A stretch of 64,000 nucleotides of DNA from Pirellulales bacterium. GTDB lineage: Bacteria > Planctomycetota > Planctomycetia > Pirellulales > JANQPP01. Every line of letters begins with the position of its first letter. Positions within the stretch are counted from its first letter, which is position 1. The DNA is taken from NCBI GenBank assembly GCA_028289405.1, contig JANQPP010000144.1:1-64000 (forward strand), given 5' to 3'. Of the stretch, positions 19,155 to 27,744 are shown piece by piece. The position numbers and the translations under genes are program-made. A model generated the notes under the pieces. That model was given only the letters and a program-made list of their open reading frames with translations, was not told where the DNA came from and ran no database searches.

Positions 19155-19898
19155 TTGTCCGTGATTGCCGTCGAAAACCTCAGCATTGAACTTGGTTCTT
19201 TCCGCCTGCGGGAGATTTCTTTCTCCATCGAGCCGGGCCAATATGGACTGCTCATGGGGAAGACCGGCAGCGGCAAGACCACCTTGCTGGAAGCCGTCGC
19301 GGGCCTCAAACCGGTTCGCCAAGGGCGGATCTTGCTGCACGGGCAGGATGTCACGCATTGGAAACCGGCTGATCGCAACATTGGCTACGTTCCCCAGGAC
19401 GGCGCGCTGTTCACCACGATGCAGGTGCGCGACCAACTTGGCTTCGCCCTTACCATCCGCCACGTGCCGCGTCCGAAAATCGACCGTCGTGTCGATTACC
19501 TGGCCCGCATGCTTGATATCGGGCACCTGTTGGACCGCACTCCTCACGGGCTCAGCGGCGGGGAGAAGCAGCGGGTCGCCTTGGGCCGCGCGCTCGCTTT
19601 CGGTCCTCAAGTCCTCTGTCTGGATGAACCCCTGAGCGCTTTGGACGATCAGACGCGCGATCAAATCATCGACTTGCTCCGCCGCATCTCGCGGGAAACG
19701 GGTGTCACCTGCCTGCATGTCACGCACAATTTGGAAGAGGCCCGCGCCCTGGCGGACGTGCAGCTTCTCTTGCAAGACGGGCAAGTCACCGTAAGCTCAT
19801 GTTTGGAAAGCAACCATGCTCCGGCGAAGGGCGCGAATTCCGTTCCCTCTTCCCCTCAGCCGCGTGGACCATCGGGCGCGGTAGTTCGTCAATCCTAG
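19155..19898 (+). CDS. modC: Molybdate-type ABC transporter ATP-binding protein, short form
   Basis: The 247-residue ATPase has Walker A GKTGSGKTTLL near residue 36, a Q-loop in GYVPQDGALF, signature LSGGEKQRVALGRAL, Walker B VLCLDEPLSALDD and the switch histidine in HVTHN. It pairs with the ModA/ModB genes directly upstream. ModC of Escherichia coli has about 350 residues with a C-terminal TOBE/Mop domain; this protein has none, only about 30 residues of low-complexity tail. No ATG fits the start: TTG 19155 or GTG 19161 are the candidates, three or nine bases after the modB stop. Confidence 0.88.
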   Translation: MSVIAVENLSIELGSFRLREISFSIEPGQYGLLMGKTGSGKTTLLEAVAGLKPVRQGRILLHGQDVTHWKPADRNIGYVPQDGALFTTMQVRDQLGFALTIRHVPRPKIDRRVDYLARMLDIGHLLDRTPHGLSGGEKQRVALGRALAFGPQVLCLDEPLSALDDQTRDQIIDLLRRISRETGVTCLHVTHNLEEARALADVQLLLQDGQVTVSSCLESNHAPAKGANSVPSSPQPRGPSGAVVRQS

Positions 19899-19909
19899 GA
19901 GGTCTTCGC

Positions 19910-21091
19910 ATGGCACGCCTAACCCGCCTGGCCCTTGGCATCGCGATGCTCGGGTGCGGGATTTCCACTTCTCCCGCCCACGCCTGTTCCGTGCCGGTCT
20001 TTCGCTACGCTCTGGAACGTTGGACGGCGGATCCCTACGAAGCGGAAGTTCACTACAGAGACCAGCTTTCCGAGGCGGACCAGCGCCTGATAAAAATGCT
20101 GGAACAGGGTGGCGATGAGCCGGGCACGCCGAATCTTGTGGTCCGATCACGGGAGATCACCCAAGACGACGAACAGGAATCAGACACTGATTTTCCCCGT
20201 TTGATCTTGCGGTATCCCCGCAAAACTGGCCTGCCGGGCGAAGTTATTCGCGGTGCGTTGACCGAGGAGAATGTCCGGCGGATTGTCTCCTCGCCAGTCC
20301 GCCGAGAATTGGTGGAGCGGCTGCGCGAAGGAGCCACGGCGGTCTGGGTGCTGCTCGAATCGGGAGATGCCGAACGGGATAACCAGGCGTACGACGTATT
20401 GCGTTCCTCGCTCACCGAGTTGGAAACCCTGCTCAAGCTTCCCGACATCGATCAAGCGGACGTGGAGCAGGGGCTGATCTCCATCGCCCCCGATCAGTTG
20501 GAGTTGTCCTTTGACCTGCTGCGACTCAAGCGGGATGATCCTCGCGAGCACGTGTTGCGGGAAATGCTCCTAGGCACGGAGAGCGATCTGCGGGAATTCG
20601 ATGGGCCGCTGGCGTTTCCCGTCTTTGGCCGTGGCCGCGTGTTGTATGCCCTGGTGGACATAGGCATTCAGCGGGAAACCATCGAGGAAGCCTGCCGCAC
20701 GTTGATTGGCCCCTGCACCTGCCAGGTCAAGGATGAAAACCCGGGGACCGACTTGCTAATTACCGCCGCCTGGGACGTGCTTTCCTTGCCTGACCTCTAT
20801 CAAGAGATTGAATTGCCCGCGCTCCCCGGATTGGGTGGCTTGGCGGAAGATGAGCCCCACATTTCCACGTCGTCGCATGTGGAAACACCCGACGTGAGCG
20901 AAACGCTCGTCGAAACGAACGCAAGTGTATCCACTCTCGCCGACAATTCAGCTTCGGAAGCAACCACGGAGGAAGAAACTGCTTTGCAACCAGGCCAAGG
21001 TTTCGCCAGCCCCGTGGTGGTCAACACCTTGATCGTGGGCGTCTTGCTGGGGCTGGGAGTCGTGGTGGCGGCGCGGTGGTTGCCCCAATAG
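19910..21091 (+). CDS. Uncharacterised exported Cys-containing protein with C-terminal membrane anchor
   Basis: I do not recognise a named family. The 393-residue protein starts with a signal peptide ending near AHA|C26. The mature N-terminus is CSVPVFRYALERW, then a mixed alpha/beta domain that contains a CTC motif at Cys269-Cys271. An acidic, Ser/Thr-rich stretch (about residues 315-360) leads to one membrane helix (about 369-390). ATG 19910 has AGGAGG at 7-8 bases, an excellent ribosome site. It starts 11 bases after modC, and is followed by the FtsX-type permease and LolD-type ATPase on the same strand. The opening CSVPVFRYALE pattern looks familiar from planctomycete and verrucomicrobial hypotheticals beside ABC exporters, but that is recollection, not a search. 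A redox or lipoprotein-handling role is only conjecture. Confidence 0.75.
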   Translation: MARLTRLALGIAMLGCGISTSPAHACSVPVFRYALERWTADPYEAEVHYRDQLSEADQRLIKMLEQGGDEPGTPNLVVRSREITQDDEQESDTDFPRLILRYPRKTGLPGEVIRGALTEENVRRIVSSPVRRELVERLREGATAVWVLLESGDAERDNQAYDVLRSSLTELETLLKLPDIDQADVEQGLISIAPDQLELSFDLLRLKRDDPREHVLREMLLGTESDLREFDGPLAFPVFGRGRVLYALVDIGIQRETIEEACRTLIGPCTCQVKDENPGTDLLITAAWDVLSLPDLYQEIELPALPGLGGLAEDEPHISTSSHVETPDVSETLVETNASVSTLADNSASEATTEEETALQPGQGFASPVVVNTLIVGVLLGLGVVVAARWLPQ

Positions 21092-23128: not shown

Positions 23129-23292
23129 CCGGTCAGGGCTACGAAAAAAGTTGAGCCGGCGCGGTATTTGAGATCTACTTTGGGGAATGCCGTCAGCGTC
23201 AACTTGCCAGGCACGATCCATCCATGCACTGGCAGTGAATCTAGGCGGACTCATTTGCCCTTCTCCCACGCCTCAAGTTGAAGGAAAACGAG

Positions 23293-25737
23293 ATGCTCGC
23301 GCTTGCCATCGTCGCGAAATGTGGAAAAAAGCCATTGGCCGCCTGTTTGGCCATGGTCTGCATGGCGGGATCGATTTTCGGCGCCGAACTGGACCACCCC
23401 TTGTTTCGCGCCATTCGGGAACGCGACGAGGGGCGCGTCGCACGATTGCTTCGGCAAGGAACACCGGCCAATCTTCGCGCGGCCGATGGAACGACCCCTT
23501 TGATGGCCGCCGCCTTGCATGGCAGTGCGGAGAGCGTGCGAAAGTTACTCGAGCGCGGAGCGGATCCCAACGCGGCCAATAATCGCGGAGTCACCGCGCT
23601 CTTATGGTCGGTGACTGACCAGGAAAAAACGCGGCTCCTCGTCGAACATGGCGCGAATGTGGATGCTCGCTCCGCCTTGGGCAACACGCCGCTGTTGGTG
23701 GCGGCGTCCGTATCGGGTGGAGTCTCCGTCGTGGACCACCTGCTGGCCCATGGCGCGGAACTGACCGCCCGCAACGGGCAGGATGAGTCCGCGCTCTTGA
23801 ATGCGGTGGAAGCGGCTGATTTGGAAACCATCGATTTGTTGCTGGCCCATGCGGAACGAACGGAACAACTCGAAAAACTCATCGGCAACGACAGTACGTT
23901 ACTCCTGGAAACCGCAGCCGCGCGGGGAACCTTGGAGATTGTGACGCTCTTCTGCGACCGCCTCACCGCCGCCAATGATGGAGAGTTTCCCGATACCGGC
24001 CTTGCGGTAAATCAGGCTTTTTTGGCCCAAAAGCCGGATATCGCTCGAGAGTTAATCGAACGGGGCGGAAGTGTGGCGCAGCGCACGCCGCCCGGAAACG
24101 AACCGGCGATCTTGCTGGCCGCTTACACGGAGACGGGAGATACGTCGGCACTTAAAGCACTCCTCCAGCGGGATGTGGAGACGGGTGCCCGGAACAAGTA
24201 CGAAGAAACCGCGCTGACTTGGGCGCGTCGGCGGGGGCATCCCGAATTGATTGAAACGCTCGTCGCAGCCGGAATTCCCGAGCACCCTGACGAGACTCCG
24301 GAGATACCCCGGCGGAGCGTCAATTTGCACGCGGGCAACCAGCAGCGGCTGCTGGTCGAAAGCGTGGGCAAAGGCATCGCGCTGTTGCAAGATAGCTCGG
24401 ACGTTTTTCTGGAGGAGCGAAAAACATGCGTCTCCTGCCACCACCAGAACTTGCCTGCCGTCGCCATCGGTTGGGCTCGCGATCGCGGACTTCCCATCGA
24501 CGAGGCATCGCTGGGCCGCTTGATTCGCCGGCAGACGGGGCAGCGTGGCGGGACGACATTTCTCAATCGCTGCTACCAGCTTGACGAGCCTGCTCCAGTT
24601 CCGCCCCGGTTTTTCGGCTACGCCCTGTGGGGCCTCTCCGCGCTGGGGCATGCCGCCACGGAAACGATCCAGGCGACAGTCTGGTATTTGGCTGCCACGC
24701 AAAAGCCGAATGGCAGTTGGACCTCGGGTGTCCTGCGCCCGCCGATGGGGGACGGTGACTTTACGGCTACGGTCCTCGCCATGCAAGCATTGCAGCTTTA
24801 TCCCATCGCGGGCCGCACCGGCGAATTCCGCCAGCGGATCGAGCGTGCGGCGCGATGGCTGGACGAAACGCCGGCCCGCTACCATCAGGAGCGGGTGTAT
24901 CAATTGCTGGGCCTCGGTTGGGCGGGTCGTTCCGAAGCCGAACTCACAGAACTCGTGGATCGGTTATTGGAGGATCAACGTGGCGACGGCGGTTGGTCCC
25001 AATTGCCGCATCTGGAAAGCGATGCCTGGGCCACTGGGCAAACTCTAGTTGCGCTGCATGTTGCCGGCGGGATGCCCACCAGCGCCCCAGCTTACCAGCG
25101 TGGCCTGAAATTTTTGTTGAACACGCAGTTCGATGACGGGTCCTGGTTCGTCAAGAGCCGGAGCTGGCCCTTCCAGCCGCCATTTGAAAGTGGTTTTCCC
25201 CATGGCCGGGACCAATGGGTTTCGGCTCCCGCCACCGCTTGGGCGATCATCGCCATGACACTGGCGATCGAGCCCCAAGACACGATTTTGCCCAAAACAA
25301 CGGGCGAGATTCCAGCGAATGAGCCGAAATCCAAAGATGCCGGCGTGGCGGAGCAAGCGGCCCCGCCACCCGTGGCCGAACCGGTCGAAGCGGGCCCGGT
25401 GGATTTCGTGCGTCACATTCAGCCGCTCTTGGAACGCTCCTGCGTCGGCTGCCATGCCGGTGATGAGCCTCAAGGGAACCTTGACATGACGACGCGCATG
25501 CCGCTGCTCCGGGGTGGCGAAACCGGTGTCCCAGCGGTTGTGCCCGGCTTGAGCGGCGAAAGCCTGATGTACATCGCTGTGTCCGGAGCAAGTGACGAAT
25601 TACACATGCCGCCGCTAGACGCACGGGAAAAGTTTCCCGCCTTGACCGCAGAGGAAGTCGCCAAAATCAAGCAGTGGATCGATACGGGTGCGTCTTGGCC
25701 CAAACATTTGATCCTCAAGACCGCTGGCTACGAATAA
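23293..25737 (+). CDS. Exported ankyrin-repeat protein with haem motifs and a cyclase-like alpha/alpha barrel
   Basis: The 814-residue protein starts with a signal peptide (about residues 1-26). Ankyrin repeats follow from about 30 to 325 (for example DGTTPLMAAALHGSAESVRK, LLERGADPN). A CVSCH haem motif sits near residue 380, and a region of about 400-660 has QxxDGGW/NGSW-like repeats (KPNGSWTSG, RGDGGWSQL, FDDGSWF) typical of squalene-cyclase/prenyltransferase alpha/alpha barrels. After a Pro/Ala linker comes a cytochrome module of planctomycete type with CVGCH near residue 717 and ELHMPP as possible distal methionine region. The combination suggests an extracytoplasmic redox or binding protein; the catalytic Asp motif of real cyclases (DxDD) is not evident. 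ATG 23293 has AAGGA ahead. Confidence 0.8.
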   Translation: MLALAIVAKCGKKPLAACLAMVCMAGSIFGAELDHPLFRAIRERDEGRVARLLRQGTPANLRAADGTTPLMAAALHGSAESVRKLLERGADPNAANNRGVTALLWSVTDQEKTRLLVEHGANVDARSALGNTPLLVAASVSGGVSVVDHLLAHGAELTARNGQDESALLNAVEAADLETIDLLLAHAERTEQLEKLIGNDSTLLLETAAARGTLEIVTLFCDRLTAANDGEFPDTGLAVNQAFLAQKPDIARELIERGGSVAQRTPPGNEPAILLAAYTETGDTSALKALLQRDVETGARNKYEETALTWARRRGHPELIETLVAAGIPEHPDETPEIPRRSVNLHAGNQQRLLVESVGKGIALLQDSSDVFLEERKTCVSCHHQNLPAVAIGWARDRGLPIDEASLGRLIRRQTGQRGGTTFLNRCYQLDEPAPVPPRFFGYALWGLSALGHAATETIQATVWYLAATQKPNGSWTSGVLRPPMGDGDFTATVLAMQALQLYPIAGRTGEFRQRIERAARWLDETPARYHQERVYQLLGLGWAGRSEAELTELVDRLLEDQRGDGGWSQLPHLESDAWATGQTLVALHVAGGMPTSAPAYQRGLKFLLNTQFDDGSWFVKSRSWPFQPPFESGFPHGRDQWVSAPATAWAIIAMTLAIEPQDTILPKTTGEIPANEPKSKDAGVAEQAAPPPVAEPVEAGPVDFVRHIQPLLERSCVGCHAGDEPQGNLDMTTRMPLLRGGETGVPAVVPGLSGESLMYIAVSGASDELHMPPLDAREKFPALTAEEVAKIKQWIDTGASWPKHLILKTAGYE

Positions 25738-25932
25738 CGCATGGAGTCACTGTGACACTTCGTGTTGGACGGCAAAAAGGGGAGTGAGCCGGCGATTCCT
25801 CTCCGAGTCCGCGTTGTCTCGTTTTTCAGTGGCCAGTACAATCAAAATTCAACGATTAAAGTGGAAAGCGGCGTGCGTACGGCCTGCCGTGGGAGATTCT
25901 TACGAGTCATTGATTTAGAAGAGGGACGGAGT

Positions 25933-27744
25933 ATGCACCGTTTGATTTGTCTGGGATTCGCGTGGGGCATGCTGGCATTGGGCATTGGCACGGCCAGCGC
26001 GGCGCCGGAACCGGCCTCGTCCGTGGGACGGCAGTTGCCGGAACTCCTGCTGTCGGATCTGGATGGCCAGCCCGCGTCTCTCTCGGACTTCAACGAATAT
26101 CGCTGCCTGGTCGTGGTGATCCTGGGCACCGAATGCCCGATTGGCAACCAATACCTGCCCGTGCTCAATGAGATGCAGGAGAAGTATGCCGAGCAGAGCG
26201 TGCAGTTTGTCGGCGTGAACGTCAATCGGGGGGACACGCTGGAAGAGATGGCCCAGCACCGTGACGAATTCAAGATCGCCTTCCCGGTGTTCAAGGACCC
26301 TCAAGGCTTGCTGGCCGACTTCCTCGGTGTCCGGCGGATGTCCGAGGCGTTCGTGCTGGATGGCCAGCGGGTGGTTCGTTACCAGGGCCGGATCGATGAC
26401 CGTTTTGGTTACACCTACAAGCGGGACGATGCGCGAGCTGTCGGAGTATGGCAAGCGCTGGAGCAGGTATTGGCCGGCGAAGAAGTGGCCACGCCGCGCA
26501 CGAAGGTGGCGGGCTGCCTGATCACCCCGCCCAAACGCGAGCGGCCCGAAGGTGAAATCACGTACGCGGAGCACATCGCGCCGATCATGCGGCAAAAATG
26601 CGAATCGTGCCACCGTCCCGGCATGGTGGCCCCCTTCTCCCTTTTGACCTATGACGATGCCGTGAACTGGGCCGCCATGATCGAAGAGGTCGTGCAAGAG
26701 CGCCGCATGCCGCCCTGGCATGCCGATCCTCGTCACGGTGATTTTCGCAATGACCGACGGCTATCGCAGAAAGAGATTGACACGCTCACTGCCTGGATCC
26801 AGGCCGATACCCCGCTGGGCGATGAATCCAAATTGCCGCCGCCCAAGGATTGGGCCCAGGGCTGGGCCATCGGCAAGCCGGATATCGTGTTCGAAATGCC
26901 CGAAGAAGTGACGATTCCCGCCCAGGGCGTGGTCCCCTACCAGTATTTCGAAACAGAGATGGACTTCGAGGAAGACGTGTGGATTCAAGCCGCCGAAGCC
27001 CGGCCAGGCAACCGCGCCGTGGTGCATCACATCATCGGTTTCTATCGCGAACCCGAAGCGGAAGGCAAGGATCGTGGTGAACGGCTGACTGATAATTGGA
27101 TCGTGGGGACGGCGCCGGGTGATATGCCCTTGATTTTGCCCGAGGGGGTCGCGCTGCGAATTCCCGCCGGTTCCAAACTGATTTGGCAGATGCACTACAC
27201 GCCAACGGGTAAAGAAGAAAAGGACCGCTCCCAAATCGGCCTCGTGCTCTATAAGGGGGAGGAGCCGCCCCAGCATCTGGTGCACAAAGTGGCCATTGCC
27301 AACGGCAAATTCCGCATCCCGCCTGGTGCCCGATATCATCAGGTCACGTCCAAGCGGAAGATTCCCAAGGATGTCCAAATCTTGAGCTTGATGCCCCACA
27401 TGCATCTAAGGGGCCGGGCGTTTGATTATTACGTGCGGTTCCCTGACGGCAGCCGAGAGACGCTGCTTTCCATTCCCCGTTACGACTTCAACTGGCAGAG
27501 CAGTTACTACTTCAAGGACCCGCTCACCATTCCTGCCGGTTCGACGCTGGAATGCGTGGCCCACTTCGATAACTCGGAGGATAACCCCGCCAATCCCGAT
27601 CCCACTCAAGAGGTCCGCTGGGGAGATCAAACCTTCGAAGAGATGATGATCGGGTATTGCAACTACATCGTGTTGGACGAAGAAGGGCCGAAAGCTGATC
27701 AGCGGACCGCCGCCGCGGCGGGGAGCGGTCGCGCCTCACCATGA
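25933..27744 (+). CDS. Exported redoxin, haem and copper-monooxygenase-like multidomain protein
   Basis: The 603-residue protein has a signal peptide (about 1-24) and a thioredoxin-like redoxin domain (about 30-180) that has a single cysteine in GTECPIGNQ rather than CxxC. A c-type haem motif CESCH near residue 222 is followed by RMPPWHADP as likely axial-ligand region. The C-terminal 250 residues resemble peptidylglycine monooxygenase-type copper folds, with VVHHIIGFY, WQMHYTP and LMPHMHLRGR as candidate copper-binding histidines and methionine. ATG 25933 has GAGGGACGG upstream. It follows the ankyrin-haem protein by 195 bases in the same direction. A copper-haem oxidoreductase is plausible, but the substrate is not known. 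Confidence 0.85.
   Translation: MHRLICLGFAWGMLALGIGTASAAPEPASSVGRQLPELLLSDLDGQPASLSDFNEYRCLVVVILGTECPIGNQYLPVLNEMQEKYAEQSVQFVGVNVNRGDTLEEMAQHRDEFKIAFPVFKDPQGLLADFLGVRRMSEAFVLDGQRVVRYQGRIDDRFGYTYKRDDARAVGVWQALEQVLAGEEVATPRTKVAGCLITPPKRERPEGEITYAEHIAPIMRQKCESCHRPGMVAPFSLLTYDDAVNWAAMIEEVVQERRMPPWHADPRHGDFRNDRRLSQKEIDTLTAWIQADTPLGDESKLPPPKDWAQGWAIGKPDIVFEMPEEVTIPAQGVVPYQYFETEMDFEEDVWIQAAEARPGNRAVVHHIIGFYREPEAEGKDRGERLTDNWIVGTAPGDMPLILPEGVALRIPAGSKLIWQMHYTPTGKEEKDRSQIGLVLYKGEEPPQHLVHKVAIANGKFRIPPGARYHQVTSKRKIPKDVQILSLMPHMHLRGRAFDYYVRFPDGSRETLLSIPRYDFNWQSSYYFKDPLTIPAGSTLECVAHFDNSEDNPANPDPTQEVRWGDQTFEEMMIGYCNYIVLDEEGPKADQRTAAAAGSGRASP

Follow-up and report, generated by a model that had tools for sequence, protein, structure and literature searches.

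The gene described here encodes a protein in which ankyrin repeats, an alpha/alpha barrel resembling class II terpene cyclases and a PSCyt1 cytochrome module are joined, and the first of its two haem motifs is, as judged from conservation and from the predicted model, part of the barrel domain and not of a separate cytochrome module. It lies in a 64,000-nucleotide stretch of a Pirellulales contig, which is called the window below. The family and the architecture are well supported; the ligand of the barrel, its reaction and the loading of its haem are what we infer from them. The features of the gene are collected in Table 1.

Table 1. Position of the gene and of its sequence features in the window.
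Feature	Position	Strand	Basis
Whole gene, 814 aa	23293..25737	+	ORF, ATG start
AAGGA, ribosome-binding-site-like, 7 bases 5' of the ATG at 23293	23281..23285	+	sequence
Signal-peptide-like N-terminus, residues 1 to ~30	23293..23382	+	hydrophobicity
Ankyrin repeats, residues 34-325	23392..24267	+	Pfam; AlphaFold model against ankyrin/DARPin chains
Predicted alpha/alpha barrel, residues 350-656, twelve core helices and one short	24340..25260	+	AlphaFold, VIA-align
CVSCH, haem motif 1, residues 379-383, first outer-to-inner helix loop	24427..24441	+	conservation; DSSP
Arg-Pro-Pro, residues 482-484	24736..24744	+	R482 and P484 81/81, P483 75/81 rows
QW-type DGGW and SDAWATG, residues 565-582, start of fifth inner helix, without DxDD	24985..25038	+	W568 81/81, D577 80/81 rows
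QW-type DGSW to GFPH, residues 615-637	25135..25203	+	R623 81/81 rows; H637 possible haem ligand
PSCyt1 domain, residues 717-776, with haem motif 2 CVGCH at 25441-25455	25441..25620	+	Pfam
Met-Pro-Pro, residues 772-774, presumed axial Met of haem 2	25606..25614	+	MPP conservation

Domain content and spread of the family

The N-terminus of the window protein is signal-peptide-like, its best 11-residue Kyte-Doolittle mean being 2.5, and hydrophobicity detected such a start in 68 of the 74 relatives whose left end is closed, versus 12 of 74 internal control stretches, in agreement with the exported planctomycete protein of the original prediction. Searches with Pfam HMMs returned Ank_2 (E 1.8e-29; 102.5 bits, cut-off 27.3), PSCyt1 (PF07635; E 2.4e-11; 44.5 bits, cut-off 22) and a borderline squalene-hopene cyclase signal, SQHop_cyclase_N passing at 26.5 bits (cut-off 26.2) and SQHop_cyclase_C falling just below its cut-off of 26.1 with 25.6 bits. 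The signal peptide and the ankyrin repeats that had been read earlier are thus borne out by hydrophobicity, Pfam and AlphaFold, and the residue numbers given for the haem motifs (379 for CVSCH, 717 for CVGCH) were correct. The modelled ankyrin part is a solenoid with repeats over the cut-off and superimposes on ankyrin and DARPin chains, on 7tbn with Z 24.1 and an rmsd of 2.1 over 184 residues. Since the PADLOC matches of the whole protein are confined to this part, with none for the barrel, a role in defence was rejected. Matches to a Legionella ankyrin effector and to MzaA (NCBIfam) also fall in the repeats, far under the cut-offs, and were put down to repeat similarity. A promoter and terminator scan gave nothing helpful above shuffled sequences.

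Relatives were collected in several ways. A protein search of the phylum with the barrel alone (392 genomes, E <= 1e-8) gave a match in 30 genomes including the window's own, and the alignment used for scanning had 20 rows, the window and 19 phylum relatives. The scan of genome contigs in the collection relied on two patterns, the DGGW and FxxGxPH regions, CxxCH being in neither; it yielded at least 420 relatives among at least 589 pattern matches, and the best 80 were used further. At E <= 1e-25 the profile matched 39 of 392 genomes in the window's phylum, 12 of 297 in that of the acidobacterium L110 and 3 of 288 in that of the verrucomicrobium L060, counts that include paralogues from a more distant group, which likewise bear CxSCH or CxTCH. 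Bacteroidota, Gemmatimonadota, Armatimonadota and Omnitrophota have few members among the best 80, all from metagenome bins. The union of a cyclase fold with a cytochrome, which had been presented as out of the ordinary, is therefore real in this protein and not peculiar to it: it recurs in Planctomycetota, Acidobacteriota and Verrucomicrobiota and sporadically elsewhere. The same genome holds a second, distant member on contig C122 (loci L120 and L148), of 360 aa with the single haem motif CHSCH. Our searches of Pfam and NCBIfam turned up no family model for the haem-bearing barrel.

A terpene-cyclase-like barrel carrying a haem motif

AlphaFold2 modelled the barrel from 81 rows with a mean pLDDT of 91.5 and a pTM of 0.90, and the whole protein from 75 rows with a pLDDT of 89.7 and a pTM of 0.84; the alpha/alpha barrel foreseen for the middle region is what the model predicts, its DSSP string giving six outer-inner helix pairs. 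With VIA-align, the barrel superimposed on human OSC 1w6k (Z 24.2, rmsd 3.5, 283 residues), 8paj (Z 24.2, rmsd 3.3, 272 residues), SHC 2sqc (Z 24.0, rmsd 3.7, 274 residues) and drimenyl diphosphate synthase (Z 23.7, rmsd 3.3, 264 residues), and the top Foldseek matches were 8pak (E 7.2e-7) and 8paj (E 9.9e-7). These structural matches to class II terpene cyclases support the squalene-cyclase type that had been proposed for the barrel. The squalene cyclase model TIGR01787 was matched by all 81 rows, the window row scoring 41.3 bits for a cut-off of 322.7, and TIGR01507 gave 35 bits for a cut-off of 431.1, so that no curated cyclase score is reached. Family members match the cyclase models far below the curated scores and can be mistaken for squalene cyclases.

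Several sequence traits go with the fold. QxxxGxW-type stretches follow the third, fifth and sixth outer helices, and the DGGW-type repeats noticed earlier correspond to the DGGW and DGSW stretches of Table 1. Invariant residues of the barrel include C379, H383, R482, P484, W568, W618 and R623, and W476 is kept in 77 of the 81 rows. The most conserved loops are the fifth and sixth outer-to-inner ones (3.16 and 3.08 bits, the inner-to-outer loops having 1.9-2.4); the second and fourth are not especially conserved, and the outer-to-inner side is not uniformly better kept. A profile alignment, covering the C-terminal part only, pairs the GFP of the GFPH loop with the C-terminal GFP of the SHC-like protein found in the same genome, which speaks for a descent of the barrel from triterpene cyclases. 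In SHC, the GFP loop lines the cavity. Altogether, the window barrel shares with class II terpene cyclases (SHC, OSC, the single-barrel MstE, 8paj/8pak) its fold (Z 20-24), the QW-type motifs and the C-terminal GFP loop. Unlike them, the window protein lacks DxDD, has a single barrel, is exported and bears ankyrin and PSCyt1 modules, and the CxxCH of its first outer-to-inner loop sets its barrel apart.

As regards the acid motif, a search for D.DD found none anywhere in the 814 residues. The fifth inner helix, where the motif of a cyclase might be expected, opens with SDAYATG in relatives and with SDAWATG in the window. The earlier suggestion to check whether DxDD is absent in all homologues was followed: the barrel lacks it in the window and in 80 of the 81 rows; L087 has a D.DD elsewhere in its barrel, near residue 68 of its stretch and not at the fifth inner helix. 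The motif also occurs somewhere, at an unspecified position, in two of the 18 full ORFs from further genome regions. Five other open frames of the genome match the barrel profile weakly and are devoid of CxxCH; one of them is the SHC-like protein, which displays DLDD. A proton-initiated class II cyclase that still works and merely carries a haem would account for the fold and the QW motifs. We nevertheless regard it as highly improbable, given a barrel free of DxDD in nearly every row, an exported protein and the presence in the genome of another SHC-like protein with its DLDD.

The haem motif itself is a constant of the barrel. Of 80 loci (the best 80 of at least 420 relatives), 79 have CxxCH where the barrel starts, and C..CH occupies the aligned column in all 29 relatives from the separate phylum search. 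The rows of these 29 were trimmed to begin 45 residues ahead of the motif closest to where the match starts, a step that helps the alignment and does not create the motif. The haem motif on which the original prediction depended is thus conserved. The sole miss, L048 (5202-6857), reads CVSRH with its second CxxCH intact; as it forms a short branch beside near relatives that keep CVSCH in a quick tree, a recent change or a sequencing error is the probable cause. The motif is also present in single-haem relatives of about 350 residues, which are little more than the barrel. The earlier picture of two haem motifs has to be amended accordingly: the first appears to be part of the barrel, and the second alone belongs to a cytochrome module of its own.

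According to DSSP, the CVSCH loop is on the barrel end from which the inner helices start, and the ring geometry of six closed hairpins would place it against the sixth outer-to-inner loop. Position 637, in the GFPH motif, is occupied by His in 66 of the 81 rows, by Tyr in 13 and by Phe in 2, a His count biased upward because one scan pattern contained PH; the 25 closer phylum relatives have His there, and the four distant ones lack the residue. No invariant Met or second His among the 81 rows fits as a second axial ligand of haem 1. Haem can be five-coordinate. The genome possesses a gene for a cytochrome c assembly protein (PF01578). A match of the barrel profile to a cytochrome c555 trimer chain (positions 32-62), in which no single stretch passes alone, was discounted.

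Modules and gene neighbours

The arrangement of modules was compared in 75 full-length rows, the window and 74 relatives, after exclusion of L059, L074, L088, L093, L095 and L102, five of which are open at the left end. Pfam detected SQHop_cyclase_C in 73 of them, Ank_4 in 57 and PSCyt1 in 38. Residues 717-776 of the window protein match PSCyt1, the planctomycete cytochrome c domain (PF07635), above the cut-off and with CxxCH followed by MPP at residue 772; all 38 rows with a second CxxCH have MPP 50-56 residues further on, and we take its Met to be the axial ligand of haem 2 by analogy with c-type cytochromes. In three loci (L030, L031 and L145), a second motif reads CYRCH and lies about 325 residues after the first.

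The position of the cytochrome varies. The second CxxCH is C-terminal of the barrel in 21 rows and N-terminal in 17, and it is found in 36 of the 52 rows whose N-part exceeds 250 residues versus 2 of the 23 with a shorter one. Since, of the 75 rows, 18 have an N-part of more than 170 residues without a second CxxCH and 19 have a short N-part, again without one, PSCyt1 is dispensable. In the quick tree, the C-end arrangement changes four times, at least three by well-supported branches, and the N-end arrangement three times, at least one by such branches; the cytochrome has been joined or lost more than once in the barrel family. This repeated joining suggests electron transfer with the barrel and suits a functional link between the barrel haem and PSCyt1, and it could also stem from the domain shuffling that is common in these phyla. 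The ankyrin repeats move as well: they are C-terminal of the barrel in the clade of L066, L091, L099 and L100, and for this reason the tree label 'bare' denotes a short N-part only.

The window PSCyt1 shares its chain with ankyrin repeats and a cyclase-like barrel, whereas PSCyt2 and PSD domains are reported as its usual company in Verrucomicrobia (PMC5615132). The accessible part of that paper describes carbohydrate-binding modules alongside verrucomicrobial PSCyt proteins, whose function is unknown, and names there neither ankyrin repeats nor cyclase-like barrels. One would then wonder whether the barrel could be a saccharide-active (alpha/alpha)6 enzyme, a GH88/GH105-like hydrolase, a lyase or an epimerase, fitted with electron-transfer modules, which would suit the carbohydrate role proposed for PSCyt proteins. 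GH105, GH88 and epimerase chains do superimpose on the barrel (VIA-align Z ~20-21), and Glyco_hydro_88 is matched by 2 of the 75 full-length members (best E 3e-7), a hint that the two kinds of barrel profile overlap. Their scores are nevertheless lower than those of class II terpene cyclases (~24), the window sequence has no such Pfam match and bears a haem motif, the sequence matches are to cyclases and the GFP loop is common to SHC, which makes a sugar enzyme distinctly improbable in our judgement.

Gene neighbours were surveyed at the 80 collection loci, except eight in which a longer overlapping ORF displaced the target, and in 20 further genome regions, the target being kept in 18. A same-strand ORF lies within 120 bases upstream in 27 of 61 cases and downstream in 13 of 70; the ORFs were called mechanically, so some neighbours may be spurious. 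Neither set contained a widely recurring neighbour, ankyrin genes making up 6 and kinases 3 of the 40 close same-strand neighbours. A few single cases hint at redox partners: a PQQ alcohol-dehydrogenase-type protein with a cytochrome domain (6860-9046 in L056) ends 4 bases upstream of an ankyrin-barrel-PSCyt1 gene, in L151 a distant paralogue is followed, 4 bases downstream, by a PSCyt1-PSCyt2-PSD1 gene, and a DUF1501 gene lies 4 bases upstream in L090; others without a redox link are kinases, an aminotransferase and a response regulator.

Ser/Thr kinase genes stand directly beside the family gene in L062, L064 and L066. They bring to mind a haem-based sensor or adaptor, in which haem 1 would sense redox state, oxygen or a radical and the ankyrin repeats would relay the signal to a partner; the frequency of these repeats (57 of 75 members) and a haem 1 devoid of a universal second axial ligand are in keeping with it. 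We consider such a sensor quite unlikely, on the other hand, for a protein that is exported, has ankyrin-free relatives and meets kinases at only 3 of 40 close positions.

In the window itself, the next frame (25762-27744, + strand, likely start 25933) is a further redox fusion of an unusual kind: its exported product combines an AhpC/redoxin domain with a CESCH motif and matches Cu2_monoox_C weakly (E 0.0026). It was rejected as a partner: its likely Met at 25933 is about 195 bases away, and in L039 and L040 the ORF found there is on the opposite strand. Farther upstream, a 430-aa ORF (19799-21091, + strand) has no Pfam match at E 1 and adjoins an FtsX-type permease and an ABC ATPase, both named by eye.

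A possible redox role for the barrel

We tentatively favour, at somewhat less than an even chance, a redox protein, periplasmic or exported, that has a minimal class II terpene-cyclase barrel as its scaffold and in which a haem would exchange electrons with a hydrophobic ligand and pass them to PSCyt1. The acid cyclisation chemistry of the barrel would have been lost, and a covalently bound haem 1 would sit at the mouth of the cavity, beside the most conserved loops. The cavity could hold an isoprenoid-, hopanoid- or quinone-like ligand exchanging electrons with this haem, and the Met-ligated PSCyt1 could deliver them to a soluble carrier or to the respiratory chain. The ankyrin repeats may dock the protein to a partner, and the bare and ankyrin-only relatives might use a separate cytochrome in place of the fused one. 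A parallel can be drawn with Pseudomonas, where the periplasmic ankyrin protein AnkB supports the catalase KatB: in both cases exported ankyrin repeats go along with a haem protein, AnkB and KatB being separate proteins and the window protein a single chain.

This redox proposal draws on the conservation of CxxCH in the barrel, down to the smallest members and under scan patterns that did not contain it, on the presumed vicinity of the CxxCH and sixth loops, on the class II terpene cyclases as closest folds, on the repeated joining of PSCyt1, on the cytochrome c assembly gene and on the PQQ dehydrogenase and PSCyt1-PSCyt2-PSD1 neighbours of L056 and L151. Against it stand the lack of a widely recurring neighbour and of an invariant second ligand for haem 1, the uneven conservation of the outer-to-inner loops and the dispensability of PSCyt1. 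Electron transfer alone could also be imagined: the barrel would then hold haem 1 without any substrate, and haem 1 and PSCyt1 would form a two-haem wire docked by the ankyrin repeats. That ankyrin and PSCyt1 join the barrel in several orders, as is seen with carriers, and that no catalytic neighbours are conserved would be expected of such a wire. We find it unlikely, as R482, W568, D577, W618, R623 and GFPH, in or beside the outer-to-inner loops, exceed what a mere holder needs, and many relatives are single-haem barrels without a fused partner.

A bolder form of the preferred redox reading, which seems to us on the unlikely side yet worth stating, is that of a new class of haem enzymes, where cyclisation would have been replaced by a c-type haem at the cavity mouth, with redox chemistry on lipids and a fused cytochrome as outlet; the chemistry may be oxidation, cleavage or reduction of an isoprenoid, a hopanoid or another periplasmic lipid. 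A literature search by title and start of abstract found no description of such a haem-bearing cyclase-like barrel protein. Should haem 1 prove to be loaded and to face the cavity, the classic scaffold of terpene cyclases would have been turned into a haem protein, and this would offer a first clue to what some of the many unexplained planctomycete cytochromes do. The family is widespread and named by no curated model that we searched, and the protein described here may be a redox enzyme or an electron carrier for a greasy molecule.
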